Assembly (NCBI RefSeq): GCF_048771995.1
Contig: NC_133027.1
Coordinates: 103,952,001-104,016,000 of the forward strand
DNA length: 64,000 nucleotides
Reading direction: 5' to 3'
Source of the DNA: Taeniopygia guttata
Taxonomy: Eukaryota > Chordata > Aves > Passeriformes > Estrildidae
Part shown: positions 6,432 through 58,394 of the stretch, in pieces
Numbering within the stretch: position 1 is the stretch's first letter
Layout of the letters: every line of letters begins with the position of its first letter
Translations under genes and position numbers: made by a program
The notes under the pieces: generated by a model
What the model was told of the DNA's origin: nothing
The model's input: only the letters and a program-made list of their open reading frames with translations
Database searches by the model: none

Positions 6432-6517
6432 GATGGATGGATGGATGGATGGATGGATGGATGGATGGATGGATGGATGGATGGATGGATGGATGGATGG
6501 ATGGATGGATGGATGGA
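6432..6517 (+). repeat. (GATG)n microsatellite
   Basis: About 21 uninterrupted tetranucleotide copies. Having length 4, it opens frames coding repeated WMDG on + and HPSI on -, which are not genes. Confidence 0.98.
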
Positions 6518-29706: not shown

Positions 29707-29810
29707 GAGGCCAGCGGGAGAGCCCCTGCCCCGGTGCCCTCGCTGTCCGTGATGCGGCTGGGTCTGGGGGATGCTTCCAGCGCACGCAGGATGGCGTGTT
29801 GGGCATCCCC

Positions 29811-30105
29811 TCGGAGCTGCGGGCAGAGCACAGGGCTCGGAGCTGCGGGCAGGGCTCGGAGCTGCGGGTAGGGCTCGGAGCTGCGGGTAGGGCTCGGAGC
29901 TGCGGGCAGGGCTCGGGGCTCAGAGCTGCGGGCAGGGCTCGGGGCTCGGAGCTGCGGGCAGGGCTCGGAGCTGCGGGCAGGTCTCGGAGCTGCAGGCAGG
30001 GCTCGGAGCTCGGAGCCGCGGGTAGGGCTCGGAGCTGCGGGCAGGGCTCAGGGCTCGGAGCTCGGAGCTGCGGGCAGGGCTCGGAGCTGCGGGCAGGCCT
30101 CGGCG
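29811..30105 (+). repeat. GC-rich minisatellite upstream of SMYD2 start
   Basis: About 13 imperfect copies of a roughly 20-bp unit CTCGGAGCTGCGGGCAGGGC, some shortened or fused. It makes a long open frame on both strands rich in Gly, Ala, Arg, Ser, Glu and Leu (29796-30605 on +, 29920-30513 on -). Those frames are repeat artefacts and not the SMYD2 frame. The array ends about 150 bp before the start codon. Confidence 0.9.
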
Positions 30106-30255: not shown

Positions 30256-30437
30256 ATGCGCTCGGAGGCGGCGCCGCAGCTGGGCGGCCTGGAGAGGTTC
30301 GCCAGCGCCGGCAAGGGCCGGGGGCTGCGGGCGCGGCGGCGCTTCGCCGTGGGCGAGCTGCTGCTGAGCTGCCCGGCCTACGTGGCCGTGCTGACCGTCA
30401 GCGAGCGCGGCAGCCACTGCGACGGCTGCTTCGCCAG
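30256..30437 (+). CDS. SMYD2: SMYD2 exon 1 (coding part)
   Basis: Encodes residues 1-60 and two bases of codon 61. It carries the GKGRGLR SAM-binding loop and the first two MYND cysteines (CDGC). Donor TTCGCCAG|gtaggg. Very GC-rich, inside the promoter CpG island. The 5' UTR start cannot be read from the sequence. Confidence 0.95.
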
Positions 30438-33400
30438 GTAGGGCCCGGGCGGCTGCGGGGCGGCAGCAGGAGCGGAGCTTTCCCCCTGCTGCGGCAGCGT
30501 GGTGTAAAGTCACAGCTGGCTTTCCGTGCTCAGCAGCTCACGAAAGAGAAAGGAAAAGGGGGGAAAAAAAAGTTCTGCTCTTCCCGTGCTCTGGCGGTCA
30601 CGTAGACACGTGCGTAGCCATCCTCCCGCAGGAAGTTTCATTGATGCGTCTAGTTTTGTCATAAGTTCGTGTTCGCTGGTTTTAATGGAGGTGTGGTAAG
30701 GGAGAAAGGGTGTGCGATCGCCTAATTCACACTTCACATTCCCTAGTGCGGATGGAATAGCTATGAATGAAATGTATACATCTCCGTATTGAAAAATACA
30801 GAAATACTTGTGTATTACCTCTGTCTGAAACCTTAGTCTGCAAATTACTGTTACTGGGGCGGAGCGCAGGCAGTGCAAGAACTTGTTTGTCGCATGGCTG
30901 GGGACACTGGGACTGGAGTGCTGCCTGCTCCTGGTGCTTGGGGATTCCTTGGTGCTGGAGGGATGCGAGGGGCTCGAGTTTGCTGCCTCCTGACCTGCGT
31001 GAAGGGGAGGTATTCAAGTGTTTGCCTCATGCCTCTCAATATGAGTGCTGCAGGGTGTACTAAAAGGGGTATTAGGGTTAGCAAATTCAGCACGGATATG
31101 ACACTGGGACGTCACACTGTACCATATTTTTAGAAAGTGTAGTACTTTTTGTGGCTTCTGATAGCTTACTGAGAAATTAAGTGCTTACCTGGTTATAACT
31201 CAGAGTAAATGTTAATAGTTGCCTCAGAAAAAGAAAAACAAAAAAACCAAAAAACAAACAACCCCCCCCCAAAAATCCCCAAACCACCTGATGCAATTTC
31301 GCTATTTTTATCCATACATCCTTTTTCTTTCCTCATTACTTTATCTACTTATGACTTGGTCACTTGATTCACCACTCTCTTTGCATATGAACACCTAATG
31401 TAGTTCCTAGTGAAGGTGCTGAAGTGAGTTCCATTAATTTGCAGAAAGGTACAGCTGAGGTGATTTTCCTCATCTCCTTTATGCCTTTTCCCAGCCTGTA
31501 AGTTTTGCATTGAAGTGTTGTATTTTGTTTTAGGTTTTTGTTAGCTCTTGTACCTAACCACAAATTTCCTTGTGCCAGAGAAGTGCCTGGTTTTGTGTGT
31601 CATATTCAGATTTGTCTGCCAAAGGACTGGGGAATACTTCCATACTGATATGGAGTAATACTGTAAGGATAATAGTTATCTCATGGAATAGCTTTTGGTT
31701 ATCTTCGGGAGCAGCTGCTTGTTATCCATGCAGTCTTCTCCTCTGGAGCTCTGGAGGAGCACAGCGATCAAGGAACGCACTGGCTGCGGCGGGACAGCAG
31801 CTAGTGGGGTAATCCGAAACTCTTTTCACACCAGGGTGATGAAGTGCCACTAAGAGGAGCGATGTCTCGGTGATGTAAGGCGATCCGCCGGTGCTCAGAC
31901 ATGTGTTCTGTGTCTGTGACTGCTGCATTAGCGCTGAACTAGCACGTACGAGATTCCAAACTGCGCTGCTGGAGCTTGCGAAGAGCCCTAGCAGCCCCAC
32001 CAGCCGTGGCAAGGAAACTTGGCGAAGTCGTCGTCAAAACTTTTATGGTAGCATGGGCAAAATGAGGCAGTAACATTGTATTTGCATGAGATAGTGGTTG
32101 TTACTTTAAATACGCGGTTGTAATGTCAGCGAGAGGAGCCGTGATGTTAGCCCGGCTCGCTCATGTTGCACCTTGTGTGCTTTGCAAATACAATCAGAGG
32201 GCACCAGACTTGCTGGGGTTTATGGTCTCCAAACACCATGACCATGGCCACCAAAATGTTGTACACTATCACATCATATGAGGACCCTCACCCTTGATTT
32301 ACTCCAGTGAGCTTACCTCAGTGTAAGGCTATTTTTTTTTAATTTTCTTTTTTTTTTTTTTTTTTTTGCTACTTACGCCAGGGAGAGTGTGCAGACATTT
32401 TAAAAGCATTCAATACTGCTGAGAGATCCCTATTGCTGTCATACCAAAATGTCACTTGTTGGGTAACACATGTTCTATTTTTGGTGGGATCTGTTGCAAC
32501 ACATGCACTTTAAAGAAGAAAAGGACCTTCCTCGTGGCAGTTCCCTCTGGTGGGGTATATACAAACATAAAAAAGGAGAGTGCGAGCCTTAGGACTGCTC
32601 AGAATACACAGATGACAGGGCAAACAGGGTGGGACAGTAAGGGGATGTCAGGTGACAGGAGATCAAACAGTATATTTAATAACACAGTATTTTTTCTTGG
32701 CTTTTGGAGGCATTTACTCAACAAAGGTCATGCATTCTATAACCAAAGAAGCAGCAGACTTGTCACAGCAAAGCCAAAGGGTTAATACTGGTGAACAAGT
32801 ACACAGAGCAGTTTTAAAGTTTGCAAAACACAAGAAGTTTAACTCATTATACTTCATATAGTGGCAAAAAATGATGCTGTCAAGTACCATAGAGTAACAT
32901 GTTTCCAAACCCAGCAATTTATAAAGAAAGCAGAGTCCTTTTGCATAATGAAAGTTGCTTGGAAAAATGTTCTTTTGAAAGTCTAATACAATTTCCATTG
33001 TGAAATGCAAAATTGTGTGCAAAAAGTGATCCAGTATACAGTTTTATTTCATTCATGTTTCTAGAAAAGAATAACTTCTGCTTTCTTTTTAAGGAAAGAA
33101 GGATTGTCCAAGTGTGGAAGATGCAAACAGGCCTTTTACTGCAATGTGGAATGTCAGGTATGGTCCTGGAATTTAGGAGGGTGGGGGGAGGGAGAGTGGG
33201 GGTTGCAGAACTTCAATTTTTGTTTGTGTTGAATTGATATGTTCTAATTGTAGCTATGGTTAATAGCAGTCTAGTCAGTTCCAGCATCCCACAGATACTG
33301 AACACAGAGTTGTGCATTGGACAATTACAGGATTTCGACAAGGTCTGCATGAATCTTTCAAGATCAGTAGCTTCAGGGCTTGGTACTACTGAGACTTTGA

Positions 33401-39400: not shown

Positions 39401-42400
39401 TTCCATCAGAATGTTTGTGTTTGACCTTACAGTCAAATGATTCTTAGTGATTGTGAATCCATTGACTTCAGACACATTACTCCTGATTTCACCAGGGTCA
39501 CCTCATAATGAGGGGCCAAAGTATTAAATGGAAATGAACCCAATGAAGTCATCAAGCTCAGACCTACTACATCCTCACATGCTTGATCTGAACAATAAGA
39601 ACTGGTGATTTATAAATCATGTTGTCTGTTTGTTTCTTTGTCATTTAATACTTTTTTTCCGTTGAGTAAATGAAGATGTTCTGACCTCAGCTCATCCCTT
39701 GTGAATTTGTTTGAAAAAAAGCAGGATAGCTGTACCCCTTAAATCTGACTCAAGCTTTTGTTCCAATTTAGTGAGCGTCACCTTATTTTTTAAAGGAAAC
39801 ACATTTCACTTGACGTCTAGGATCTGGCAGGACTTGCTTCATCCCCTTTTTCGTAAGTTTGTCTCCATGGCAGTTTTAAATTTTTTTTTCTCTGTTTTCA
39901 GAAGGAAGACTGGCCAATGCACAAACTGGAATGTGCCTCCATGTGCACTTTTGGGCAGAACTGGCATCCCTCAGAGACTGTGAGGCTAACAGCAAGGATC
40001 CTTGCCAAACAGGTGAGCAAAAAGGCGAGGCTTGGGAGATTTGCTCGTGTTCTGGTGTTAGGGAAGGCAGGGAAATAAAAATTGAGACTAAAGTCATCAA
40101 GCTCAGACCTACTACATCCTCACGTGCTTGATCTGAGCAATAAGAACTGGTGATTTATAAATCATGTTGTCTGTTTGCTTCTTTGTCATTTAATACTTTT
40201 TTTCCATTGAGTAAATGAAGATGTTCTGACCTCAGCTCATCTCTTGTGAATTTGTTTGAAAAAAAGCAGGATAGCTGTACCCCTTAAATCTGACTCAAGC
40301 TTTTGTTCCGATTTAGTGAGCGTCACCTTGTTTTTTAAAGGACCAGGGCCAGCATGGTCCAGCTGGAGACTGTTGCAGGAAGCTAGTGAAAAGTTAGTGA
40401 GGTCTTCAGCTGTAACCTGTGACCAAGGTACTGCTGAACAGAGCCTGGAGATCTTTACTGATGGTTTCACATTGGTGTTTCAGCCTCTGTTCTGGTACAC
40501 TTGAGCTCTTGGTTACACGTGTGGGCAAGCACCAAGACCACACTAATTAAGAGAAAGAAGAATAGGATTTGGTGTTTGAGTTTAATTCCAAGGAATGCTT
40601 CTGGAGTTATCTGGCTGCATGCACTCATACCTTTATTAAGCAGTTGTCTGTTGTAGTATTTTTCAGCTATGGTTGCATAGCATTGTGTAGCATATAACTC
40701 CCAGTACATTTGTGAGTCAAAACACCTCTGAGGTATTAGGTATAAACATTTATGATTATGAGTTAGCTGGTGAAAACCAGAGTTTGAGATAGACCCTTGG
40801 TGTTTGAAAAAAAGAGTATTGTGAGTAAGGAAAGAAGATTGTAATGTCGACCTCCATTTCAGTGTTCCTTAACTATATGGATACTGAGGATAACACAAGT
40901 ACTTACAGGGAGGGAATGGGATCCATGAGTTTCAAGGTTATTGTGCTGTGTATCTTCATAGAGCTCTAAACTCTCTCTGCAAAAATAAATGCTCTTTGAA
41001 GCAAATTTTTGTGCTTGAGGTCTGCTTATGTGACAAGGGAAACCTGGATACTGTATGTAGGGAGGATTTTGGTGGCCTGCTGGGGAGGTAGCTGCATCCT
41101 TGCTGTGTGTGTAGATGTGTGTGCATGAATGTACATGTGTGTGACTTAATTAAAGCGCCTTTTGGGGGTGATCCACAAACAAAATCGAATGTTTAATGAA
41201 AAAAAGTCGTTGGAGAAAATTTCTGCTTTTATCGCTTACAGGGAGGGGGGAGAACCCTACATGTCATATGAAAGCTAAATATGCAAACCACAGTCCCTGA
41301 ACCTCAGCTGCTGGGCCACCTGCAAAGCCATATTTAATGGCCAAGATCACAAAGAAGTGGCCTTAGGCCAACAGTGGAGCATTGCTTTTGAACTCTGTCA
41401 ACAGTCAGTTTATTCACTTTCCTCAAAGCAAAGCCTGTCTTCTGCCTGCTTGCTATTGTTAGCAGCTTTCTGGGTGTCTAGAACAAAGCAAATGACATAT
41501 TTAAAATACTGTTCAGTTTATGTATATAAATTTGAGAGGAGTTCATCTTTGGCTGCCTAATTTGATGTGGAGAAGATATTTCTATGCCTTTAGTTAGGGC
41601 AGTCAATTTAACTCATTGGTGTTCATCCACTCTTATTAGTTCCATAGACTGTGGATTTGGGTTTGTCTTGCAGGTAGGAATTCCCAAATTCTGAATGAGT
41701 ACACAAAGCTGCTGAAGTGAAACATTAAATTTTTTTTTCCCTTGTTGTTAGAAAACTCACCCTGAAAGAACACAGTCAGAGAAGCTGCTTGCTGTAAAAG
41801 AATTTGAATCACGTAAGTAAAAAAGGCTTGCAGGTAAACAGAGGTTTTGACTTCACTATATTAATGATTTGTTTCCCCATGGCTCCCCTCCATCAACACC
41901 TTTCAGAACATCCTGCTTCTGCTGGAGGAAAGGAGTAAACAAAGAGAATTGTAGTTCCTCATTTTTTTGAAAGTGCAGTGCTCTTCTTTCTTTTTTTTTT
42001 TTTTTTTTCTTGGCTGTTTGTGGGAGCTGTGAAACAAGGGTGAATACCTAGACAGAGTTAATTATGTAGCATACATCCATCTCTTGGTTCTCTGGTATTC
42101 TAGTGTCTTTTGAGAATTGTAATGTTGCAAAATTAAAATAGCTGGTATTTGTTACCAGGAGGCATAAAATCAGAGACAGCAGAGTTGCTTGATGGTGACA
42201 GTGACTAAGGGGCTAATTGCAGAACCCTCTGGACTGTGCTTCAGTATCTGTCACTGCCAGTCAAATCTGACATGTTATATATGATTCCATGTCCTAAATG
42301 CTCTAAAATAATCTAAAGAAGGAGATAAGGCAATGGCTTGCTTTTAAATGGAAAGCTGCTGTTTACGTCCAGTCGGGCCGAGTTAAAAACTGACCATTAG

Positions 42401-45400
42401 TACCCATCCTGGCACAGTTTTCACCAGTCTGTTGTTTTCTTTCTTGGTGCTGAGCATAATATACACAGAGGCAATGGGTTGTATATTCACATTACTCACT
42501 CTGATGGCTTCCAAAACCTTTTACAAAATGCTTAATAAATGTACTCATTGCTAGGACTGGAGTAGCAGAGTAACCAAGCACAGTAGTCTTATTTGCTTCC
42601 TGAACAAAAGCTCCTGTCATTGCTTTTGGGACAACTGGGGGAACAAGGGGAAAAAATGCCAACATTTAACTTTGCCTGTGGCAAGGATAGTTCTACAGGT
42701 AAGGTGGCAGGATTGAGTTTGAGGAGAATGGGTAAGTTTCTGTGTATTCTTCTGCATTGTAGCCAATATTTTATTAATTTGAGAGATAAAAGACTGAAAT
42801 GTTTTTTTCTGTTGCAGTGTCCCATTTGTCCTCTAGAAGCCTTTGTTTTGTTAGCAAGCACCCCTGTTCCTGCTGCTTTTTGACTCACCTCACTGCTTAG
42901 CACACCTTTATCAGTTGTCTTATGCTTTGCAACACCACTCACAGGATAGGAAAAGGCACCTGGCTGTCAGCTGGAAGTTCAGAATTTCTTATTTCTGATT
43001 GGTCTTCATTCTCATCAAATGCTCCCATTTCATTTTCCTTGGTGTTTTTTGTGACTCGCCCAGCATTCACATCTGCTCTTACAAATAATTTCCTTCTTCT
43101 CTGATTGTTGTGCAGCCTTTTCTCTCCATTATTATTTTGAGTTGGAGAGAGCAGGAGAGAACTAGTAACACTGCCACTGTGATAGAGTGGATTAGGAAAA
43201 AACTTCCAAAAAATTCTGCTTTTGAGAGTAGAGAGAGGGGATCAGGAGCATATGGTGGATCATCTATCTTACTCTGCATGGACCAGGTAGGGAAAAGCTC
43301 AGTGGCCATGGCTTTGGCTAGAACTTGTCATGGTCCTGAGGGTAAATCTCTGGAGAAACCCATAATGGAATACAGTTGGCAGGTGTGCCAAGACATTTCC
43401 ACTGATATTCCTGCTGTCTCCTATTAACAGATATCTGAGAACATCTCTGTTGGTGGTCACCCCCCAGCCCATGGAGATGTGGGCACTTTCAGGCACTGTT
43501 TGCTACCTGTGCCTGAGCAGGTGCCTGCAATAGGTCTGGTGGATTGTATTCCTGGGCACCCTCATGTTCTCCTCCTCTTGCTGCAAAGCAAACTCCTGTA
43601 GCCAGCCCCAGTGTTGTTGCTGGATCCCTGTCATGGGTGGCCACAAATAGCTGGGGCTTCTGTGCTAGGAAAGACCACATATTTTAAAAACAGCAGGGAT
43701 AAGCAGCCTTAGCAGCAGTTTGGGCTGCTTTGTGCTGCTAAGGAACAGGTCAGTATGAGAAAGTGGGTGATGTTCAGTGTTGGCTCATGCCACAGTGGGT
43801 GGGACCATGTGGCTGGGAAGGTCGTGTCAGACAGCTGAGGACAGCTATCCCCAGCTAAAAGGCTTCCAGAGATCCAGGGCTGCTGGGCTGTTTGCTGGAG
43901 TTCACTAGTGTGCTTTAGAGACTACAACCTTTCTCCCAAGAAAGTAGTCTGTGTCCAATTATCTGCTGACCTAAAGATGTCAGAAAATGCTTTTTAACCC
44001 TTCATGTTGGGCATGTGCTGGACTCGGTGATCTTGAAGGTCTCTTCCAGCCTTGTGATTCTGTGATTTTATGTTCTTGTAGCTCACGTGTGGCTTTAGCA
44101 GAGGCAACGTTGTATGTGTGGAAAAGAGGCACTTCTTGCAGTACTTCCAAGTGGCTTGTCCCTCAGGGGTTTCTGTTAAAATCTGGGCTTCTTCTAACCT
44201 AAGGCTACCTGGATGGGGTTTCCTGTTACTGAAATGAAATGTATTTTTTGTCCACAGACCTTGACAAACTAGACAATGAAAAGAGAGAGCTGATTCAGAA
44301 CGACATTGCTGCTCTTCATCACTTTTACTCAAAGCACTTGGACTACCCTGACAATGCTGCCCTTGTAGTTCTCTTTGCACAAGTAAGTTGGCTAGAACAC
44401 AGCCTGCTTAGGTGGATGGTGCTGTAGGAGTTTAGCCTTTCTGAAAGGGGAGAATGTTAATGGCAGTGGAAATGGTAGCTCTTTGCTTATCTTAGGGACA
44501 GATGGCTATACTTGATGGAGATGTGCTTCACTGAACAGTAATGGCTGGATGTGCCCCACTTCCATCCTGAGGGGAGAGGCTCTTGTCTGCAGACTTTCCA
44601 TGAGGTGCTTCTCAAACACTGAAGAAAAGGGGAAACAGCCTTTAATAAACCCTGTCAAAGTTAAGCTTCTTGTGGGCCAAACATTGTGTGGCTGTTGTTG
44701 AACTAACATGGAAGGCTGCTGGCCTGAGACCCTGCAGAGGCAAATCCTTCATTCAGGCTTCAAACTTGTGGAAATCCTTGCTGGGCAGGTCATCATTGTG
44801 TTTGACCTTCACAGGGAGTAAACTTCAGAGACGTAGAAAGAGCAGCAGAAAGCGCAGCCTAAAACTTTTATCTGGTGAATGGCTTTTAAATGTAGTCAGG
44901 TGGTTTGGCCATCTGGAGAGATGAAGGAAAGACAGAATGTCTTGTTAGATAACTTCTGATATGTCACTTCTTTTTTCTCACCTACTTTTCATATGCATCT
45001 GAATTGGATGTATTGTAGTGGATGGAATAATACACCAGTGGAATACTGAAAGATCCATTTTCTTCTTTTCCCTCTTTTGCTTCAATATGAGCTACTTTTG
45101 TACTTAGGTTTCTGAGTAAAATAATATCTTGAGATGGAGGCAAATGATGCACTTCTGTGATGAAAGCTGAGATGGAAATATCCTCTTTGGCAGAGCTGGG
45201 TGTCTACCAACAAGGAGGCACAGTTACTATTTCCTTACTACAGAGATACTCTTATTCTGTAGGGGAATGATTCTTTAGGATGTTTAGCATCTGCTTATCA
45301 TCCCTTGTGTTGTTTCTAATTGCACACTTCCTTTCAATGGCAAGAGTTTTTTTCTCTTTTGAAAACTTTAAAATTTATGTTTGTCAGAGGGATACTTTGA

Positions 45401-48400
45401 AGATGTTAGTACAACCAGTTTCTTGTGCTATTTCTGAATATTTTTGTTAGAATGTAGCCAGAATACCCCAAAGATTTCATTATTTTGGCTATAATAAGTT
45501 TTGTTTCATGTCCTGTCTAAGAGCAGCTCCACCAGATTGTGGTACTTTAACTGACTTCTGTGAGCTGCTGGCTCCCAGATCTCATATTCCATCCAGTCAC
45601 CTCTATGGATGTCACCCATAGGTGTTACTTTAAGCTCATCCTGATAATCAGGTAGCTCTCTGCCACTGTGGACATTAGAATTTTTTGAACTAAAATCTCC
45701 AGAAGTCATCTGGATGCTTCTCAGAAGTGTTTTACAGGATGCAACCTTCTGAGGTGTTAGTCCCAGGATAAATCTTTCCAGAAGAATGGGAGGTATGCTT
45801 GTACCTGAGCTGTGCAAACATATTTCCTAATAATTAGTTAACTTGACCTAGAACCAGTAGTGTTGATATGCTGCCGCTTCTTTGTTTTCCTTCAACACTT
45901 ACTCTGACCTTATGTGGTCTATTTTGCTTCGCCATTCCCCATTGTTGCTCCCTGTGGTTCAGGGCAGTCACTGGGACTTGAACACCTCTGACTCCTTCTC
46001 ATTACTTTTAGTGAACATTGCTAAAGTGTAACTCATCCTTTTGGGTGGAATAGGGCCCTTTTGTCCAAAGTCCTTGCCTTTCACTGCTCTCCTCTTCAGC
46101 TGTTGGCATCATTCTACTCACTTTTGTCCCCATTGAATATAGCTCTTGAGGCTGGAGTTTTTTTTCCTCAGCCTCACCTTGTCATATTTTTCAAACAGTT
46201 TCTCACTTGCCTCAAGTTCCAGCATCTCACCCTTTCCTTGAAGACTTTGCATTTTGTGCCTCCCTTTGCACATTCTCTTTTCTGCCATTGGGAACACCTT
46301 GAACTCCAGTTTTGCTGCTGTTGTCTCTTCACTCTCCCCACTTTACCTGTTTTTAGTCATGCATTCATCTGGTGAAACCAGTGATATCTCATCCCTTCTA
46401 ATCCCTCCTCTTGTGTCATTTCTAATATGATACTTTCATGAAGTGTGTTGTTTCTGGTTTAGTGGAGGGCAGTTGATGATAACTCACTACATATTTTTAA
46501 ATATTTCCCTGTGGTTCAGAATCATCAAGCTGTTCTTTATCAGCCTTTTGTAGCCTTATGTTCTTACTTGCTGTTGATATTATCTTTCCCGTCTATTGTT
46601 TTTGCATTCAGCAATTATTTTTTGGTTTTGGTTCAGGTATGCCCTTGCATTGGCCAGCGCACTGGGAACCTTTGGTGCTATATTGCTAAAAATAACAGGA
46701 TAAAGATTGAGCAAAGATAGCAGAGATACTGATGAGTGAATCAGGATACTTGTCTTAATTGTGGATTCACCCTGAACAGTTCATACCTGAGGAGTGGCTT
46801 TGGGTATTTGTGTACTTCTAAAAGCCAGTCCAGGCTGCATTCCAGCTTATGGGGCATATCACTTTGCTTGGTGAGCAACCTGGTCTACTGGAAGGTGTCC
46901 CTGCCTCTGAGAATTGGAGAACAGGAAAAGACTGGAACTTGATCTTTACAGTCCTTTCCAACCCAAACTATTTAATGGTTCTGTGATTGCTGTTGGTAGT
47001 ACTTGTTGTCAGCTCTTACCCTTTCCAAAACAAATGTTGCACTATACTTGATTGACTGTTCCTGTGCCCTTTCTAGCTGTAACTGTGCTTGGCCATGTTG
47101 TTTTAGTGAGTAGTTGTTTTAGTGTGTTACTGGTGCTTTTTTCATGCGTGTAGGGACATAATGGTGAATGCAGAGAGGGTTCTCTTTGTGTCGGTGTGTG
47201 TGGGATTTGAAGTGGAAGTAGAATGAAGTACTTGACTGAGGTGCATTTTGGCCACTTAAAGTCATACAAACCACATGAAAAAAGCTGACACTTCTGTAAG
47301 ATTCCTTTGACTTGGTTGAGAACAAAAGTGAGAAGGTTTTAAAACCTGCTTGAATCTATTCTATAAGAGAGTTTTGTGAACATGTTCTTTTGATCCTGTG
47401 TCTGTTTAAATTAGGAATACACTTCCTCTCATACTCTGTCCTTTTTCTGTCCCCTCCTATTCTATGTCTTTATGAGGTTCAAGTCTTTCTCAGTGCTGTT
47501 GTTGTTTTCACATGTACTTTAGTCTTTGGTGACAGGTGCCATTGTGGCAGGTCAGTGTGACATATGCTCCATCCAGGCTCTGCAGTGCCCCAGCCTGGCT
47601 GAGTTTGCTGCCCTTCTTTCCTACATTCTCCTTGCATGTGTAGCTCTGCTTTGGCCCTTTCCTTGTTATGGCCCAATGAAATCTCCTTGCCCCATGCTGG
47701 GCCGAGGTTTTGTGTGCTGTTTTTGAGCCCTGCTTCTCTTGGTTGCAATTCACTAGATGTGTCCTGAGCAGGTGCAAGTGTTGGACCGTCAGTTTTTTAG
47801 CATCCTGTGCATTACTTTGGAGTGGGACTTTGTCCTCACTTCACCTGTTAAGATGTCATGGAGCTCCCTGTGAGTCCTGGAGAGATGGATGAAAAGTTGT
47901 AAGCAAATTTCTGCAATTGTGTTTGATGTATGAGAAAGTGATATGTGAATACATGAAGAGTACTCAGCTGACCAGAAACTCATCCAGCACCTTTCTTTTT
48001 TTTCTTAGGTTAACTGTAATGGCTTCACAATTGAAGATGAAGAACTCTCTCATTTGGGATCAGCTATATTTCCTGAGTAGGTTGATTTTAATATTTAAAA
48101 AGATAAGAATAACTTATTTAGAAACAAATAGAGGAAATAGATATCTACCAAAATAATTAATTTATCTTGTTTTAAATATCTTTAATTGGCAAATGAAATG
48201 TGGCAAGTTATTTGCAGCAGTTTATCTTAAAAATCCAGTAATTTTGGTAAAATTGCGCATGTAATTTGTTTTGAAACTTAGATTGTGAACTTAGATTTCA
48301 GGTTGGTAAAGAACACTTATTTGGGTAGCAGGTTCTGGACAAGGACATCAAGTAATGATCAAAGCCAAATGAAAAGGATTGCAGGTGACTTGCTCTTTTC

Positions 48401-51400
48401 ACAACTTTCTGTTTTGGCTGGGTATAATCCTTCCCCTGGTGCTCTCTGAACAATATAATTTCTACCCTTGTTCCTTGGCAAATAGAAAATCCCTTTCATA
48501 GCTTCTTTGAGCCTTCTTGCCATGACAGTGGAAAAAAAATTATATACAAGCATCTTAGCTTTACAAATAAACTACAGATGTTAAGTGTTAACTGCAGTTC
48601 ATGAATGGGGGCCTGCAGCTTTCTTTAGGGCCAAGAAACATTTCTTGCATTTTTAAATCTGTCCTTCCCATTTAATATTGTAGCAGAGGAGGGTATTTTC
48701 TGTCCCTGATCTTTGCACAGCCTGTATGAAGGTATTAGCACTGAGGCTTAGTTTGACTTCCTGGTGAGGCTTGGATTACTCATAGCTTATCTGTGTCAAA
48801 GTAACCTGAAACTTATGGATGCCCACTCAAAGCTGGATGTGATTTTGCCAAGTGCTGCAGACAAGCAGTAGTAGCTAGTCCTTGCTTCAGAGATTCTTCT
48901 TCTTCTTCAGGCAGGTCTGTCATTCATATCCCTGATCTACAGATTGGAAATTAATGCCTTGAAATGCCCAGGATCAGAGTCATTGTGGGAAGAGGAGAGT
49001 ATTAAACCAGGATGTTCTGGAAGCACCATCACTTTGTAAATGCTCAGGATACAAGAGTCAGATCTTTTCTACTTAGCAGTTATGCCTGTGAGCTAAAAAT
49101 ACTGAAGAGACAGTTGTTATTTTGCTAGATTGGAAGAAAAATAATTAAAATTACAAATTTTATCTCAGATAAGCAGTGAACTGCACTTTCTCCAAGCTTG
49201 GTAATAAGGGGTTTACTTTTCTCTATCCATCCAGGTTTTTGTCCAAGTCATATTCTTGTATAACAGACAGAGATCTCCTCCCTCCCACTTCAAACATGGA
49301 GGCAGTTTACATTTGAATAGAAGCCAGCTAAAATTTTAACACCCATTTCAACTTGCAATGCAGCAAAGACTTTTGTTTTCCTGTATTTACTTTTTCCTTT
49401 TTGGTTAAACATGTTTTTCTTTCTCCTCTGAGGAAAACAGTCTGTCTCTCATGTTGATAGTAAAACTGTATGAACATACCTGTCAGCTGTCCTGTAGCAC
49501 TGTGAGAAGGGGAAAACAATAACTTGCCTAGTTCTCCAGTAATAGGATTTAAAAATTGTAATGATTCATTAGCACAGGCATTCTCCATATCATTAGAATA
49601 AATAACAGTACAACAGATTTTCCCAAGGTTACCTTCATGTTAAGCCTCAGAATAAAAACAGCTTAGAGAGACAGACTGACTCAATCTTTCAGACTTATTG
49701 ATTTTGTGAAGTGGTGCTTAACTTTTTGCGTGTTGCTTGTGGTGGTGGTTGAGGAAAACATTTACTTTTCTACTTTTACAGTGTTGCATTGATGAACCAT
49801 AGCTGTTGCCCAAATGTGATTGTGACTTACAAGGGAACCTTGGCTGAAGTCAGAGCTGTTAGAGAGATCGAGCCTGGAGAGGAGGTAAATGCAGTGTTTG
49901 AATTTGCTCTGTCCTCGTGCAGCCTGACAGCATTCATTCTGCTTCTCAGGGATCATTTCGATTAAATGGCAATTTAATAACAGGAAGGAAGGATCTCTTG
50001 TTTCTCAGAGAAATGCAAGATGGTGCTTTGGAAAAATTAGGGTGGCTCAGGAGGACTGAAGGGATTTTTGGAGGCAGTACCCTGTTTTTTGCTAAAACAT
50101 GGGAAGGGCACCTGCAGCAGTCACTGTGTATCTGCCAGCCTCTCTCTCAGTTTACCCATCTGTAAAATGAGGCTGAGTTTACTGATGTTTGGCTGGTGCT
50201 TTGAAATTCCAAGATCAAAGCAAATTATTACTGCTATAATAGTTCCCAGTATAATAGTAATGTGTTGAAATTGAAGCCAGAATAAACAAGGTAAATGGGA
50301 ACAGATAAATCCTGACTTCTGTTTGGACAGAGCATCCACAAAACATAGGACTTGGTCATATCACCTCAGTGGCATTTGCTGGGAAATCACAAAAGAACAA
50401 ATGTGTGGTTTTAGGTGGAGTGAAACTGAGTAGAGAGGAATAAAAATCTGTGAAATTGAGTAAGGCTCTGGGTTTACTTTGAAACTTTCTCAATCAAATA
50501 ATGAATTTGGCAGGGAGTTTTAAACAGTAGAGCTGCACTTTACTAAAAACAAACAAACAAACAAAAAAACCCCCCAAAAAACCCAAAAATGATGTTAAAT
50601 AGAGCTGGGGAGGATGTTCAAATACCTGTAGGGAATGAAGATAGTGAACATCCTCTGGGGACGGAGTTTGTGCAGAATTTCAATGGCTCATTAGTAAATA
50701 TTAATTTAATGGGCAAAGTTAATGCTGATAAGCTCAGATTTGATTTTTGGATAAAATCTACTGTCTTCTGAGGTGTGTAATAGCAGCTGGAAGAAAGTTA
50801 GAGAGGTTATTTTTGTGGATTGTACCTGATCCCCCTTGTGAACAAACTTGATTTAGCCAAGGGTGTGAGCAACTTCTTTTGATACCATTTGCCAGTGATG
50901 ATTTTTGTCTCTGATGTTGGCACTCACTGCAAATGCATTGTGGTTACCAACAGGACTGATTCTGCTTCTGGCTTCAGAATTTTGCTGTGGAATCTCAGAC
51001 ATTTTCAGCATTTTGGGGGAAGGTGTATCATTAGAGGTAGAGATGTGGAGTATTTATCTTGCTTCACATCATCTTCAGGTTGAATTGAATCCTGCCCTAG
51101 AAGTTGCATCAGCTCTCCAGGACCTCACAGGTTTTGCACTTTTGCTTTTCTGACACCTCAGAATGTTCTAAACGTGAGCTGTGGCTGTGTGTGGTCACTG
51201 TGCAGTCTCCCAGCCTGTGTCTCCATCTTCAGGTTCCGTGTAGCCATTACAGGACAACATTTTAAAGTTTTTTTTTCTGTAAATGTGGTTCCTGCATTCC
51301 ACATGCTTTGAAAATATCGAAGGGAGGAGAGGAGTGTGAGGGAAAACGTGAGATGACATGCTCACACTTGAGAAGAAGGTGCACTGTATGAAATTACATG

Positions 51401-54400
51401 TAATTTTACCTTTGAAGAAAAGAGAAACTTTAAGTATAAAGTCTGAGCAAAGCATTTCAAATAACTGTAAATGTGGAAATGGAGCTAAAGCTGTTCCTTG
51501 GTCTGTAGAATGATCAACTGCACTGTGCATAGGATGTGTTTCTTGGGGGAGATCTCGTTTTAAAAGTACAGCATTAAAGCTAGTTGCAGGGGTTCTTTTC
51601 TGAAGACCATTGAAATAGAGGAAACTTAAGAATAGTGTATATGAAGAGCCTTTAAAATGTTCAAAAGCAGGTTTTCTTTGCTTTAAAATATTGCTGCTGA
51701 AGTAAATCTGATATTCATTCTCCTTGAACTGAAGCACTGGGCCTCTCTTCTTTTCAGAGATCTAAAGGTCTTGTCCTAAGTTTCTAAAGCTACTAGTGAC
51801 TGCTGTTGCCCCAATTTTTGTAGGTTTTCAGAAAGAAAAATTTGAAATTCCAGCCTCCAAGAAACCAGGCCACTGTAATTTATCCTAGGCTGGATACCTG
51901 AAATCATTATTTTACTTCTGAAAAGGAAGCATCTCTTTGTAGTCTGACAGGAGCCTGAGATTTATGCTGGGGTAGTTTCCTTATCCACACCTGAATCTTG
52001 CTGTCCTGGGTGCAAGCCAGGGTAATATTTGAGGGAAATTCCATAACAAATGGGAAAGGAACATTTCTCTGTCAGGTTGCACTCACAAGTGACAACTCCT
52101 GATGCTTCCAAGGGGCTTGGAATGCGAGGCAGCAGGCAGGTGATGTGGCTGCAGGGGTCCAAAAGCTGCATGGATATGTCATTGTCATACTACATATATC
52201 AGAACAAGTGTAATAAATATGTTTAGTGATGCTGCTTCTCACTAACTGTTGTTTGGTTTTTTTTCCACCATGTAGATTTTTAGCAGCTATATTGACCTAC
52301 TGTATCCCACAGAAGACAGAAATGACCGGTTAAGAGACTCCTATTTCTTTAGTTGTGATTGCAGGGAGTGCACTACAAAAGAAAAGGTAATGGAATTGGT
52401 GTGAAATGTACTTCTGACTGTCAGGGCACCTACCCATGTCCTTATATATAATATCCTTGCTGGCTTAATTGCATTTTGGAAAGTAGGATAATGGGCATGG
52501 GGGAGGTGGTTGTGTTTTTCTGTCTTTCCATCCAGAATGCTTTCTGATGCTCATTCTTTCCACTGTAATCATGACACACAAGAAAATTTCCTGGTAGAGG
52601 CCTATTTAAAGCTGAGCTACAAAGCAAAGATGAAAACATTGTTAAAAGTAGATAATTATACTGTGTCTGAGCTACTTGGCCAAACTAATTTAGCTCTGAA
52701 CTTTTTTTAAATTTCATCCTTTTTACCAACTCCTAGCAAGTAAATCTTGCTTGGGGCATTTCTGGGATAGAGTGCTGCTGCATTTCCTTGGTGGGACAAT
52801 TCAGTAAATTCTAGAGGACATTGTATGGCATGTGTGGATGGTTTGGAGACACAGCAGAATCTGAGGAATGACCTTTTCTACAATAGCATCATACTGATCT
52901 GCTCAGGTGGTCCTGGGTCACAGCCCCTTGTGATGTGCAGGCCAGAGTTACGCTCATTAAATGGGAGCTGGTGCCCCTCAAAGCACAAAGGAAGATCCAG
53001 ACAGTGTTCCTGACAAAAAGGTCTTAGGTGTTTTGCAGAAAAGCACTCCTTGGAGGGAAAAGGTACCCAAACCCAACAGATACTGAGACAGCTGTTCCTG
53101 TGCAACCATTTGGACCTCTTTCACTGAAGATCCTAGAAGGATTGAGCTCTGTGTAGCTTATCTGTCATTCCAGACAAGATCAGTGTGTCTAGCATAATCT
53201 AATCCTTAAGTTCCAGATATTTTTTCCTCCCATTTTCACCAGGCTTCCCAAAGTGACCAGACAGCCATTTCCTTCCCCTAAATGATGTCATTTTTTGTGA
53301 TTTTTTTTTCCCAGATAGTACCCAGTATTGTTGCTTGAGGCCCTTCTGATGATACCATATCATTTGTGTTCTTCCCCACAGTTACCTTGATAATTTTGCC
53401 ACTGAGTTTAATGAAGCCAGGATTTCATCTGTGATTTTCAACAATGTGCTACTCTGGGAGTCACCTGCCACTCAGCCTCCTTCAATTTTGGAAAGAGTCC
53501 CTGTAGCTCTCTCAGCTGGCACATTAAATAATAATAAAAAAAATCTTGCAACAATGTGAAGCTTGAACAGCAAAAAATTGTCTCTAGATTGTAGCTGGCT
53601 CCTCATGAAATAGAGAGATAAGAGAAAGTGGAGCTGTCCAGCAGAAATAACAAAATATATGGAAATGTGATTTTGTCTATAGATCTGAAGGATCCTTTTC
53701 TATATTTAAGATCATGTCATTTTCCACAGAGATATCATTTGTACTCAACCTGAGGTACTTGAGCTGGTATACCTTTAAAACTAAGCCTAAATTTGTTTTA
53801 AACCCTAATCTTTTGGAAGCAGTGAAATTTCTTATGTAAAAACACTTGCAACACAAAATCGAAAAGCTCTTCAATCTTTCAGAAGAAAGAGACTTAGTGG
53901 AAGTAGAGAATGGCAGATGAACTGGAAGGCCAGGGGATCCTAGGATTTCTAGCCAAGGCTTTAGAGAAAAATTGCAGGTGCACATTCTACCTTTGTTTTT
54001 TCATTCTTTGAAGAGCTTAAGTTCACATCTGTGTCTTTTTATTAGAGAAATTTTGGATAGCAGGTGCACTTTTATTTGTAGGGCTTGGAACATGCCTTTG
54101 TAAGGTCCATTGTGTTTCCTTCAGGATAAAGAGAAACTGGAAATCTGCAAGCTGAATGATCCTCCATCAGCAGAGACAGTAAAGGACATGATCAAATATG
54201 CCAGGAACGTGATTGAGGAATTCAGGCGAGCCAAACACTACAAATATATCCTTTGTCTTACCCTGACTCCACTGGTGTGTGACCTAAAAATCTTGCCTGC
54301 TGGACTTCAGAAGTACATGCAGGAGAAATACTGTGACCAGTAGAAATTAAACTTATCTCTGTCCTCTTTGTGGCTGAAGGTATTATCAGGTAATTGTATA

Positions 54401-57400
54401 ATGAGAGGCCATCGAGATATTGGGTTCCTTGACTTCTTCCTACCCCCTAGTGAATTACTGGAGATCTGTGAGCTCAGCCTGGACAAGATGGGTGCAGTGT
54501 TTGAAGACAGCAATGTTTATATGTTACATATGATGTATCAGGCCATGGGTGTCTGTCTCTACGTGCAGGACTGGGAAGGTGCGCTGTGTTATGGGCAAAA
54601 AATTATCAGACCCTACAGGTAAATATGACAATTTTTTTTAATGTTCTAATTAATAATCTGAACAATAAGACAAGTTGGTGCAGAGATCACTTTTCTCAGT
54701 ATATATTGTATGAGCGATATTTGTATATTCTACTATTTTCCCCTATTGTTGTTGGACAGAAATTTATTTTAGTTTCTTAAGCATCAATGACTACTGTAGC
54801 ATATAATGACTCAGTGTGGAATGTATATTGTATATTCTACTCATGATACCACTACTCAAAAAGGAATATTTAAAGTCCAGGACAGTGTTTGTTGCTGTCA
54901 GAAAGTGGTCTGCAATATACAGCAGGATTGACTCTGAAATCCTTGCTTGCGGTTCTCAAAATAATTTTGTGCTACCTTAGTGCCATGATCATTCTGCTTA
55001 GCTGGATAGATGCTGGTTTCTAAAATACTATAATTTTTTACTAAAGAAGGGCTTCAGCCTTCATCTGCAGCCAGTGTTTTGTACAAGGTAATGGAGGCAG
55101 AGCCTGTGTTGCTGCCAGCCTGGTGCAGTCTCCCAGCCCTGTCTCTCTGCAGCAGCAGAAAGTACAGCCACAGGAGAGCAGAGCCACATCCCAGGGCTGG
55201 GAGCAAGCAGCAGAGGGAGCTGGAGCTGAGCTCAGCTCCTGCTCCCGGAGCTCTGGGTGCCCCATGGCTCTGATCCCGCTGCCCTAGAGCTGGAGGTGCA
55301 GGAGAATGCCCAGGCTGAAGCCCTGCGTGGGGCAAGCACACAGCCTCTGCAGGAGATAAGAATACTGTTTGTGAGCAAATTCTCTGTTTCTGCAGTAGTG
55401 AGCCCGTCGGCGAGAGCCAGGCAGTTACACTGGCTGTGTCTGGTCCTGCCATGAATCTCCCAAACAGATTCTCCTCTTGAGACGTGACTTTCTTGCCAGC
55501 TGGGGGGAGCGCAAGAAAAGCTCTCCCTTTGGAACAGATGCCAACATAAAGTCACAGATCACTTGGCAGCGAGCAGTGATACAAAGAAGGAGCCAACATT
55601 CCCTCCCTGGGGGCTCAGTACTATTTATCTTCCCTGGGACTTGCCCAGCTCCTCTGGCTCCGAGCCTGGCATTCCAGGTCAGCTCTGCCGAGGCGGGCAG
55701 TGCCCGCTCCGTGTGTGCGAGCGCAAGCTGCCATGTGTGCCCTGCACGCTGCCGAGGGCCCCTCACTTTCCAGCCCACCAACCATTGTGGGACACACAGA
55801 GCCGCTGCTGCGGGTGCAGGGTGGCTCCAAAAACTCCTAACAATGCAGGCTCTCTCTGGAGCTGGCTAGATTAAAACTAGCGGCAGAAAGTCATTGCCAT
55901 CTGACAGCTGCTCAGAGGCATATGGTAGTTTCAGTCCAGTTCCCAGCTGACAGGCGTCCCCATCCCAGACACAATTGGCACGGGCTCTTGGCAGTCACGG
56001 CAGAGGGGATGAGCGCTGAATGGGCAGGGGCACCGAGAGGCAGCTTCTTGCCCCATGAGAGGGAGACAGAACTGGGAAAATGCTATGAAACTGCCAGAGT
56101 TGATGAAGCTGAATTTCTTTCTCTCTTACAGCAAACATTATCCCTCCTACTCGCTGAATGTTGCCTCCATGTGGCTGAAATTAGGGAGACTGTACATGGC
56201 ACTGAAGAACAGGACAGCTGGAGTTAAAGCCCTGAAGAGGGTATTTATTGCCTGGTTTCTCCATTAATAACACCAGTTCAGCCATGGGGTCGTTCTGTCA
56301 CTTCTGTGTGCTTCTCTGTCAGTGAGCCTGGTGTGATAGGAAATGCACCATGTGTTAATATATTTGGTCACGAGATTTTTGGCTCAGATTTGGTTTTTCT
56401 GGAGATGGAGGGTAGGTCTGCTCTTGGGTGCCTTTTCACAGTGGGCTCATACTGCAGCAGCTGGAGTGAGAATTATGCTTAAACGTTTGCTCTGAGCTCT
56501 TCACTGAGCTAGAGCTGCACTAATGTAAATGAAGCAAAACCCTATCTTCCCCTCATTTGCTGGGTAAGGACAGGAAAAGTGCTTGGCTCTTATAAAAGGC
56601 ACATAGTGTTTCATTGGAGTCTGTGATTTCTATGTCCAACTTAAACTAGGCATGCTTTTGATAGTTATTTGTTCTGGAACCAATCGATTTTTACATAGCT
56701 GAAGGGAATTCAATGCATCTGGTAATGCTGAAATTGGCAAATACAGCAGTTTGGTTTTGGGTTTTTCTTCACCCCTTTTTATTAGTCTGTGCCTTATTCT
56801 TTAGTTTTTTATTCTGCTATTTTTTTATTAGTCTATGCTATGTTTCATGACTATTTTCCCCTATTGTCGTTGGACAGAAATTTATTTTAGTTTCTTAAGC
56901 ATCAATGACTACTGTAGCATATAATGACTCAGTGTGGAATGTATTTATTTCTTCTTGCTTTTTAGATGCTGGCAACTTTTAGCCAGCAAATAACAGCACC
57001 ATCCAACCATGGTGAAAGATGCTAGAAGAATATATGCTCTAAAATTTAACTGTTACCTGGTTTGAAATTGGCATAGGTTTTCCTTCACTGTGGTGTTAAA
57101 CCCTTGAGTAGAAATGGGAATTGTGCCAGTAGGAGCATGGATGGGGGGTAGGGAGCTGTGAGGTAAATTTGTTGGCATTGTTAGTTTCCTAACACAAACA
57201 TTTTCTAATGACTCACTTCCAAAAGCTGTCTACAGGAACTGCCCAAAGTTATCCCAGCCTCTGATGTTTGGGATTTAGTGGAAAAGCAAACCCATTGTTC
57301 CCTGCCAGTTTGTGAGCAGCTCATCTAGAAGGTCCTCCTTTCTTTTTTGGGCAGGAGGAGGAGTGGAGTCGTTTCTCACTGCTGAGGTGAAACCAAAAGC

Positions 57401-58394
57401 CCTTGTTGTACTGAATTAACAAATACAAGAGCATAAAAGTTTCCCAAGGATGAAATGACCAAATGCTCAGAGGGCCAGGATACTGCAATTCCTTGCTCTG
57501 TCTGAGCTCTGTTCATTTTTAACCATTCTCAGATTTACTTTTTTAACTTACTTACCATTCCCAGACTTACTTTTTAATGGCTTTTAACCATTAAAAAAAG
57601 TTTCAAAATGGTTTTTAACCATTCTCAGACTGAACTTTTTTCCCAGTTCTGTCTAGTGTTGCCTTTTATCTTTTCTCAAGAGAAAATCTTGCCCCAGCAC
57701 ACACTGCAGGGCAGGAAGGTGCCGATCAGGGGTTTGTCTGCCTGCAGCATTCCCTCCTGGGCCTGGAGCAGGCGAAACACTGGGAGTTGGGCACAGCAGT
57801 GTCTGTCCAAATCTTATGGGATCTCACTTTTCCCTTAGAAGTTGCTTCCTTCCTAAAGCATTGGCAGCCCCTGGAAGGAGCAGAGGGTTTACAGACTCAA
57901 GGTTGAAATGGCTCAGCATTACTCCTTGCCCTAGGCCTGCATGTCTCTGACAGCTGAAGGATAAATTGGTAGGAGCAGAGCTCGCTCTGATACTGGCTAA
58001 GTCCTCTGCTGGAATATTACCCACCACACTTGCAGTTTTCTGTCCTGGAGCTGGTTGCATTCAAAGTAGTTTTGTCAGAAATATAATTTTGAAAGGTGCT
58101 TTGGGCTCCTTTAAGATCAAAGATGTATTCTCTGAATATAAAACCTTTATTACTTAGTTTTGAATTTCATTTTATTTCCTACTGGGTTTATGACTACAAG
58201 GGGACAAAAAGTAGCTAGAGGTGTCAGACTGCTTCAAACCTCTAAAGAGAGTATTTATAGCCTGGTGTTATATACGAATCAATTGTGTGAATATTTTTTT
58301 TTTCTTTTCATAGGCAATTGCTATCATGGAAGTAGCACATGGGAAAGATCATCCATACATTTCAGAGATCAAAAAGGAATTAGAGGACCACTGA
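30256..58394 (+). CDS. SMYD2: SMYD2 protein-lysine methyltransferase, 12 coding exons (436 aa)
   Basis: Joined exons 30256-30437, 33094-33157, 39902-40012, 41752-41812, 44258-44382, 48009-48076, 49782-49884, 52276-52386, 54125-54245, 54444-54618, 56132-56240 and 58314-58394 total 1311 nt, an open frame of 436 codons plus TGA. The product matches remembered human SMYD2 (433 aa) along its whole length, with three extra N-terminal residues. Visible parts: SAM-binding GKGRGLR at 19-25; MYND zinc finger with C55, C58, C68, C71, C77, C81, H89, C93; SET core with C184, N209-H210 in NHSCCPNV and Y243; post-SET cysteines C265, C267, C270; then a helical TPR-like C-terminal domain from about 276. From the family, SMYD2 monomethylates lysines of p53, RB1, HSP90 and histone H3, in cytosol and nucleus. 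No frameshift or missing key residue is seen, so the gene looks functional. The start is chosen because MRSEAAPQLGGLERF aligns with human MRAEGLGGLERF. Confidence 0.97.
31223..31288 (+). repeat. A/C-rich low-complexity tract with a C run
   Basis: A-rich text with AAAC motifs, then about ten C in a row. A like tract lies at 50546-50592. Confidence 0.85.
31373..31860 (+). repeat. Right arm of inverted repeat, in SMYD2 intron 1
   Basis: Partner of the arm at 29193-29706. Similarity stops abruptly after CTAAGAGGAGC on this side. The 1.66-kb spacer between the arms holds the minisatellite, the CpG island and exon 1. Confidence 0.85.
32332..32367 (+). repeat. Poly-T tract in SMYD2 intron 1
   Basis: Two long T runs separated by AATTTTC. 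Confidence 0.9.
33094..33157 (+). CDS. SMYD2: SMYD2 exon 2
   Basis: 64 nt, acceptor ctttctttttaag and donor gtatgg. Completes Arg61 and encodes KEGLSKCGRCKQAFYCNVEC then Gln82, the middle of the MYND zinc finger. Ends in phase 0. Confidence 0.97.
39445..39525. repeat. Degenerate interspersed repeat in SMYD2 intron 2
   Basis: CCATTGACTTCAGACACATT and CTGATTTCACCAGGGTCACC match the half-site pattern of the same old repeat type. Directly precedes copy 1 of the exon 3-flanking duplication. Confidence 0.45.
39546..39797 (+). repeat. 252-bp direct duplication, copy 1 (SMYD2 intron 2)
   Basis: Matches 40091-40342 base for base without gaps, with 7 differences, all transitions (about 97 percent). 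Starts AAGTCATCAAGCTCAGACC and ends TTTTTTAAAGGA or its variant. It lies 104 bp upstream of exon 3. Confidence 0.97.
39902..40012 (+). CDS. SMYD2: SMYD2 exon 3
   Basis: 111 nt, 37 whole codons (83-119), acceptor ttttcag, donor gtgagc. Begins KEDWPMHKLEC and so supplies the last two MYND zinc ligands, H89 and C93; ends LTARILAKQ. It is bracketed by two copies of a 252-bp intronic duplication. Being in phase 0 on both sides, its loss would keep the frame but break the zinc finger. Confidence 0.97.
40013..41751 (+). other. SMYD2: SMYD2 intron 3
   Basis: Holds copy 2 of the 252-bp duplication and an imperfect TG-rich stretch near 41105-41145. Nothing else recognised. Confidence 0.95.
40091..40342 (+). 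repeat. 252-bp direct duplication, copy 2 (SMYD2 intron 3)
   Basis: Second copy, offset 545 bp, beginning 78 bp after the exon 3 donor. Flanks on both sides are unrelated to those of copy 1 and no target-site duplication is seen. Exon 3 itself is not duplicated. Confidence 0.97.
41752..41812 (+). CDS. SMYD2: SMYD2 exon 4
   Basis: 61 nt, acceptor cttgttgttag, donor gtaagt. Encodes KTHPERTQSEKLLAVKEFES plus the first base of His140, the linker after the MYND finger. Human has KIHPERTPSEKLLAVKEFES here. Confidence 0.96.
41813..44257 (+). other. SMYD2: SMYD2 intron 4
   Basis: A T run near 41991-42009 and a CR1 tail near its end; frames on both strands at 42589-42942 look spurious. Confidence 0.95.
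44015..44076 (+). mobile_element. CR1 3'-tail scrap in SMYD2 intron 4
   Basis: CTGGACTCGGTGATCTTGAA, GGTCTCTTCCAGCC and TGTGATTCTGTGATTTTATG are the last bases of an avian CR1 element. It sits 180 bp upstream of exon 5. Confidence 0.8.
44258..44382 (+). CDS. SMYD2: SMYD2 exon 5
   Basis: 125 nt, acceptor ttttttgtccacag, donor gtaagt. Completes His140 and encodes LDKLDNEKRELIQND through LVVLFAQ (to residue 181). The stretch IAALHHFYSKHL is identical to human as remembered. Confidence 0.97.
44383..48008 (+). other. SMYD2: SMYD2 intron 5
   Basis: One CR1 tail. A minus-strand 103-codon frame at 45506-45817 has no recognised similarity. Confidence 0.95.
46871..46990 (+). mobile_element. CR1 3'-end fragment in SMYD2 intron 5
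   Basis: GAGCAACCTGGTCTACTGGA, AGGTGTCCCTGCC and CCTTTCCAACCCAAACTATT give a clear CR1 tail, ending TTCTGTGATTG. Confidence 0.9.
48009..48076 (+). CDS. SMYD2: SMYD2 exon 6
   Basis: 68 nt, acceptor tttttttcttag, donor TGA|gtaggt. Encodes VNCNGFTIEDEELSHLGSAI and FP plus two bases of Asp204. C184 and N185 lie in the SAM/substrate-binding part of the SET domain. Confidence 0.97.
48077..49781 (+). other. SMYD2: SMYD2 intron 6
   Basis: AT-rich, nothing recognised. Confidence 0.95.
49782..49884 (+). CDS. SMYD2: SMYD2 exon 7
   Basis: 103 nt, acceptor ctacttttacag, donor gtaaat. Encodes VALMNHSCCPNVIVTYKG and on to EPGEE (residue 238). It holds the SET signature NHSCCPNV; N209 and H210 correspond to the SAM-contacting N206/H207 of human. 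Confidence 0.98.
49885..52275 (+). other. SMYD2: SMYD2 intron 7
   Basis: Low-complexity A/C tract at 50546; a minus-strand 180-codon frame at 51195-51737 with no family motif. Confidence 0.95.
50546..50592 (+). repeat. (AAAC)n and C-run low-complexity tract
   Basis: AAACAAACAAACAAAC followed by CCCCCC and A runs, in SMYD2 intron 7. Confidence 0.85.
52276..52386 (+). CDS. SMYD2: SMYD2 exon 8
   Basis: 111 nt, 37 codons (239-275), acceptor ccaccatgtag, donor gtaatg. Begins IFSSYIDLLYPTEDRNDRL and ends CDCRECTTKEK. It contains catalytic Tyr243 and the post-SET zinc ligands C265, C267 and C270. Confidence 0.97.
52387..54124 (+). other. SMYD2: SMYD2 intron 8
   Basis: AT-rich, nothing recognised. 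Confidence 0.95.
54125..54245 (+). CDS. SMYD2: SMYD2 exon 9 (ends at a U12-type donor)
   Basis: 121 nt, acceptor tttccttcag. Encodes DKEKLEICKLNDPPSAETVK through ARNVIEEFRRAKHYK plus the first base of Ser316. The exon stops before atatcctttg, the U12 donor consensus, not before a GT. Joining to 54444 restores KSPSELLEIC exactly as in human. Confidence 0.96.
54246..54443 (+). other. SMYD2: SMYD2 intron 9: AT-AC U12-type (minor spliceosome) intron
   Basis: The 198-bp intron begins ATATCCTTT, the U12 5' splice consensus, and ends TTCCTTGACTTCTTCCTAC. It contains the branch-site consensus TTCCTTGAC, with the branch A 11 nt before the terminal AC. Only the AT-AC boundaries give the conserved peptide KSPSELLEIC. 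Reading through the intron adds about 32 residues and then stops at 54341, losing the whole C-terminal domain. Confidence 0.93.
54444..54618 (+). CDS. SMYD2: SMYD2 exon 10
   Basis: 175 nt. Starts right after the AC of the U12-type intron; encodes SPSELLEICELSLDKMG through QDWEGALCYGQKIIRPY plus two bases of a Ser codon. Donor gtaaat. Start of the TPR-like C-terminal domain. The apparent TAG at 54448-54450 is out of frame: it is read as CCT AGT. Confidence 0.96.
54619..56131 (+). other. SMYD2: SMYD2 intron 10
   Basis: AT-rich first part with copy 1 of the 95-bp duplication, then an abrupt GC-rich block from about 55,080 to 56,060. Confidence 0.95.
54732..54826 (+). repeat. 95-bp duplicated segment, copy 1 (SMYD2 intron 10)
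   Basis: Identical to 56850-56944 except one base. This copy is bounded by TTGTATATTCTACT at 54721-54734 and again at 54828-54841, a 14-bp direct repeat that looks like a target-site duplication. So this copy appears to be the inserted one. Confidence 0.93.
56132..56240 (+). CDS. SMYD2: SMYD2 exon 11
   Basis: 109 nt, acceptor ttctctcttacag, donor AGG|gtattt. Encodes SKHYPSYSLNVASMWLKLGR and on to GVKALKR, one TPR-like helical pair. The donor is weaker than its neighbours. A partly similar stretch occurs near 58,236-58,270. Confidence 0.96.
56241..58313 (+). other. SMYD2: SMYD2 intron 11
   Basis: Holds the probable source copy of the 95-bp duplication; otherwise AT-rich. Confidence 0.95.
56850..56944 (+). 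repeat. 95-bp duplicated segment, copy 2 (SMYD2 intron 11)
   Basis: Likely source copy, 2118 bp downstream of copy 1 and on the other side of exon 11. It lacks the flanking 14-bp repeat. Confidence 0.93.
58314..58394 (+). CDS. SMYD2: SMYD2 exon 12, last coding exon
   Basis: 81 nt including TGA, acceptor tttcttttcatag. Encodes AIAIMEVAHGKDHPYISEIK then KELEDH and stop. Human ends IKQEIESH, so the C-terminus is whole. Confidence 0.97.
   Translation, partial: AIAIMEVAHGKDHPYISEIKKELEDH

Follow-up and report, generated by a model that had tools for sequence, protein, structure and literature searches.

What kind of intron begins with AT and ends with AC in the middle of a bird gene, and does it do anything beyond being removed? 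The question is raised by a stretch of Taeniopygia guttata DNA 64,000 nucleotides (nt) long (assembly GCF_048771995.1, contig NC_133027.1, positions 103,952,001 to 104,016,000 of the forward strand), which we call the window and whose own numbering we use. The gene is SMYD2, as a preliminary description of this DNA had proposed: the best matches of the spliced protein among solved-structure chains (phmmer) are SMYD2 chains at 863.8 bits, SMYD3 reaching 240.2 and SMYD1 236.2. The intron is its ninth. Judged from its sequence, 54246-54443 is almost certainly an ordinary conserved U12-type AT-AC intron that interrupts SMYD2 early in its C-terminal domain (CTD), orthologous to a mammalian intron and, most probably, paralogous to one in SMYD3. 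Its parts, and two nearby features that matter to the argument, are as follows.

54246-54443, + strand: SMYD2 intron 9, AT-AC, with U12-type signals, phase 1, 198 nt
54246-54254, + strand: U12-type 5' splice site ATATCCTTT
54425-54433, + strand: U12-type branch site TTCCTTGAC, branch A at 54432
54442-54443, + strand: AC 3' splice site
54448-54450, + strand: coding TAG (Pro-Ser codons) resembling an AG acceptor
54341-54343, + strand: in-frame TAG met if intron 9 is retained

U12-type introns carry the 5' splice site ATATCCTTT and, near their 3' end, the branch site TTCCTTRAC. Against these consensus sequences, the donor of intron 9 (ATATCCTTT) agrees at 9/9 positions and so does its branch (TTCCTTGAC), the branch A lying 11 nt before the last base of the intron. 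Donor, branch and AC end are thus all present where the preliminary description had placed them. The ten GT-AG introns of the same gene look different: each has at least three mismatches in donor positions 2-9, and their best branch candidates near the 3' end also have at least three mismatches each, where intron 9 has none on either count. We then defined an exact motif set as the donor and the branch with an AC that follows the branch A by 9-16 nt, within an intron of 60-3000 nt. On the two strands of the window together it occurs once, at intron 9; when one 64-kb strand was simulated 200 times with a first-order Markov model, it appeared in one of the runs.

The U12 intron of SMYD2 is already known, having been published for mammals. 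Table 1 of PMC7367187 prints the orthologous intron as U12-type and phase 1 for human, chimp, dog, mouse and rat, with the donor ATATCCTTT in dog, human and chimp, ATAACCTTT in mouse and rat, the branch TTCCTTGAC and an AC end; the dog row (a slash marking the exon border) reads ACAAAT/ATATCCTTTA...CTTTCCTTGACA...AGCAC. Five of the six SMYD2 rows of that table therefore bear out the comparison that had been proposed as a check, the exception being macaque. The intron, exon and splicing passages of a paper on SMYD evolution (PMC4521844) make no mention of intron 9.

Two points weigh against our reading. If one mismatch is allowed in the donor and one in the branch, the window holds nine AT-AC combinations on the + strand (intron 9 included) and two on the - strand, and because these loosened combinations total 11, motifs alone are weak and no proof of an AT-AC intron. 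Loosened motifs do arise here by chance, and one could imagine that they had fallen by accident into an ordinary GT-AG intron whose exon borders are slightly shifted. The second point is the macaque row, where the intron is classed as U2-type with the odd borders ACAACT/GCCCTG...CACAG and is given by the authors of PMC7367187 as an example of class conversion. Since that row still prints the U12 branch site, an annotation slip seems to us likelier than a change of class. The same row gives mild support to the claim that gene finders confined to GT-AG will err at this boundary, which is plausible and which we would leave at that strength.

What decides the matter is the protein, because the best join restores conserved residues. 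The splice pairs tested were in-frame GT-AG, GC-AG, AT-AC and AT-AG pairs no more than 30 nt from the borders given by homology. The top-scoring pair is the AT-AC join 54245/54444 (score 122); the runner-up, at 103, is another AT-AC pair that brings inserted residues. Joining 54245 to 54444 restores ...RRAKHYK-SPSELLEICELS, residues identical to those of solved SMYD2 chains, and among the pairs tried it alone recovers the conserved join K-SPSELLEIC. It interrupts codon 316 after the first base, which corresponds to human Ser313. GT-AG or GC-AG borders were tried for intron 9 in 81 pairs, 17 of them in frame, and none recovers the conserved join. With 0 of those 17 restoring the residues, and with the donor position and AC end the same in the mammalian orthologues (PMC7367187), a chance match inside a shifted GT-AG intron is improbable in the extreme. 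The coding TAG that had been called a decoy is indeed there just past the acceptor; joining the AT donor to it removes 205 nt and therefore shifts the frame.

One of the in-frame pairs deserves a closer look. A GT at 54277 and the AG at 54450 enclose 174 nt, keep the frame and end in a pyrimidine-rich acceptor, CTTCCTACCCCCTAG, so that the locus could be taken for a shifted twintron in which the major spliceosome removes 54277-54450 as an alternative to the AT-AC intron and yields a protein 8 residues longer. Twintrons are known in 18 human genes (PMC3564746), although the main text of that paper names no SMYD gene. The donor, GTGTGACCT, looks poor to us (a judgement made without scoring), and since 17 of the 81 GT/GC-AG pairs are in frame, one in-frame GT-AG pair is expected by chance. 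The product would also exchange the conserved SPS for 11 residues missing from solved SMYD2 chains. We regard a twintron as highly improbable, and return to the simple AT-AC intron.

Where does this intron fall in the protein? The preliminary description had set it on the border between the SET/post-SET part and the C-terminal domain, and here we have to part company with it. In the structural account of PMC3125274 the N-lobe of SMYD2 comprises residues 3-279 and the CTD residues 280-432, in seven helices. As the split codon is human 313 and the CTD begins at 280, the intron lies within the CTD, about 33 residues in. The hinge residues of helices H and I are given in the same paper as 294-300 and 319-322, from which, together with the sequence, the intron would sit at the turn that links the first two CTD helices, or close to it.

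Removal by the minor spliceosome is what we infer for intron 9, and the genome (1.14 Gb in 41 contigs) holds genes for the necessary small nuclear RNAs (snRNAs). Matches above the Rfam cut-off are found for U12 on contig C2 (149.2 bits), U6atac on C19 (133.4 bits), U11 on C25 (106.1 bits) and U4atac on C9 (85.7 bits); for each of the four, 0 of 14 control genomes matched. An additional U6atac-like copy at C5:41832848-41832973 (95.6 bits) is either a variant gene or a pseudogene. The 5' region of U12 holds a gapless 7-nt complement, with one G-U pair, to TTCCTTG of the branch site. Both U6atac and U11 hold a 6-nt complement to TCCTTT of the 5' splice site, that of U11 with one G-U. On the known pathway, the 5' splice site ATATCCTTT would be recognised by U11 and then by U6atac, the branch site TTCCTTGAC would be paired by U12, and the intron would be excised at the AC ending at 54443 to give the phase-1 join. 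As predicted from sequence, the snRNA genes and their complementarity show a capacity for minor splicing, not its use.

Does poor splicing of this intron do anything for the enzyme? It had been suggested that retention would end the protein at 54341, leaving the catalytic half without its C-terminal domain, and that the efficiency of the minor spliceosome could thereby tune enzyme form. The stop is real. The retained intron is open in frame for 32 codons until the TAG, and the product would be 347 amino acids long. Most of the CTD would go, as had been supposed, yet 33 of its residues would stay, followed by a foreign tail of 32 residues, so that the catalytic half would not be free of the domain. 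A stop lying farther than 50-55 nt upstream of an exon junction predicts nonsense-mediated decay; this one lies 275 nt ahead of the next junction, at 54618, which makes decay or nuclear holding likelier than a short enzyme. A switch in which poor minor splicing leaves a stable 347-residue SMYD2 could draw on two published observations, that shorter minor introns are more retained in mouse and human tissues (PMC6717393; intron 9 has only 198 nt) and that mutation or deletion of the CTD increases the activity of SmyD1 (PMC3125274). There are contrary cases too: of 722 mouse minor introns, 467 were retained in none of eleven tissues (PMC6717393), and the CTD of SMYD3 is reported to be essential for basal activity (PMC4414169). 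With the expected decay and the foreign tail, they make such a switch very unlikely.

No report of retention of the SMYD2 minor intron turned up among the literature matches listed. SMYD2 is absent by name from the main text of PMC6717393, and its mentions in PMC7140081 and PMC12249604, which amount to a list of primers, one reference and a row in a table, say nothing on retention. The SMYD2 primers of the former, a leukaemia splicing study, are named exon 8F and exon 11R in its Appendix C, and the stretch between them should span intron 9. Minor splicing is limited by unstable U6atac according to PMC3728624, whose title calls minor introns molecular switches. Given that limit and the minor-intron retention described in PMC6717393, tuning of the amount of SMYD2 is a reasonable idea. 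If intron 9 has a regulatory role, its likeliest form would be control of transcript amount, through retention followed by nuclear holding or decay, and not of enzyme form, for which we find no support.

The whole coding part of SMYD2 lies on the + strand of the window, at 30256-58394, in 12 exons:

30256-30437, + strand: exon 1, coding part from the ATG
33094-33157, + strand: exon 2
39902-40012, + strand: exon 3
41752-41812, + strand: exon 4
44258-44382, + strand: exon 5
48009-48076, + strand: exon 6
49782-49884, + strand: exon 7
52276-52386, + strand: exon 8
54125-54245, + strand: exon 9, with the end of the N-lobe and the first 33 CTD residues
54444-54618, + strand: exon 10
56132-56240, + strand: exon 11
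58314-58394, + strand: exon 12, up to the stop codon

Spliced together they keep an intact frame of 436 codons, and the predicted protein is identical to human SMYD2 in 365 of 436 alignment columns. Ten of the 11 introns are GT-AG, the AT-AC intron 9 being the eleventh and, at 198 nt, the shortest; the remaining ten measure 1513-6744 nt. Closely upstream of the start codon at 30256 lies a GC-rich tandem repeat (29810-30103) of 19- and 26-nt units with higher orders of 45, 90 and 109 nt, and elsewhere in the window there is a perfect GATG microsatellite of 21.5 copies (6432-6517). An Rfam scan of the window gave no matches at gathering scores, and a Pfam scan of four of its open reading frames gave no families and put a name to no gene beside SMYD2.

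SMYD2 has relatives in the same genome, and one of them holds a second intron with U12 signals. We located SMYD3 and SMYD1 by searching the genome itself, fetched the stretches and checked their identities against solved chains. The first search gave seven matches (two to SMYD2, one to SMYD3, one to SMYD1 and three weak ones without assignment) and the other gave eight (two each to SMYD3, to SMYD1 and, by position, to SMYD2, with two left out). In SMYD3, an exon ending ...YPKSKE+G at C4:83149418 is followed by GTATCCTTTCAG, and the next exon starts AG TGG AAG CAT at 83152843 with TTTCTTTAACTAAAGCCAATAACAG directly before it. Between them is a phase-1 GT-AG intron with U12 signals (C4:83149419-83152842, 3424 nt), its donor GTATCCTTT without mismatch and its branch-like TTCTTTAAC with one, the A lying 16 nt before the end. 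The joined piece scores 101 bits against solved SMYD3 chains and 29 against SMYD2, and its alignment pairs 87 residues with 87, the length staying constant across the join. For the SMYD1 piece the best match is SMYD1, at 132.5 bits, with 85 residues paired to 85.

In the MAFFT alignment the split codons of SMYD2 and SMYD3 share a column (51) and a phase (1). SMYD3 residues 32-87 pair with SMYD2 residues 315-370, which puts the SMYD3 split codon, residue 30, at 313 once more. The upstream exon of SMYD3 is 11 residues shorter, which speaks against a shared position; the shortening implies a gap in the SMYD2/SMYD3 alignment, which lies farther upstream. We take the two introns, as predicted, to be most likely paralogous, in which case the U12 intron would predate the SMYD2/SMYD3 split. 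The two genes could instead have gained their introns independently, but position, phase and class would then all have had to coincide. On balance we lean towards a history in which a phase-1 U12 intron stood near the start of the CTD before that split, became or stayed AT-AC in SMYD2 and GT-AG in SMYD3, and in SMYD1 either disappeared or gave way to a U2-type intron 11 nt off. If that is true, the lysine methyltransferases SMYD2 and SMYD3 share a dependence on the minor spliceosome that SMYD1 does not have. No paper linking SMYD3 with U12 splicing was found among the matches listed, and U12DB, MIDB, IAOD and paper supplements, which lay outside the search, may already catalogue the SMYD3 intron. 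The SMYD3 match is one modest addition to a known SMYD2 intron.

How, finally, does intron 9 compare with its known counterparts? With the mammalian SMYD2 intron (PMC7367187) it shares gene, phase 1, the branch TTCCTTGAC and the AC end, and its donor flank, ACAAAT/ATATCCTTT, is that of the dog; it differs in the base that precedes the branch motif, which is G here but T in mammals, and in its 3' end (CCTAC here, AGCAC in mammals). A conserved minor-class intron is thereby confirmed in another vertebrate, of a sort that gene finders restricted to GT-AG can misplace. The SMYD3 intron resembles it in alignment column, phase and U12-type donor and branch, but has GT-AG ends, 3424 nt and one branch mismatch, and its splicing is read from homology alone. 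SMYD1 has an intron in the same stretch of the CTD (on C5), but an ordinary GT-AG one (GTGAGT...CACTCAG) in phase 0, before column 55 and so 11 nt downstream, whose best U12 branch candidate has four mismatches. Together the three genes make a small natural case of U12 introns holding their place while their ends, AT-AC or GT-AG, or their class differ among paralogues.

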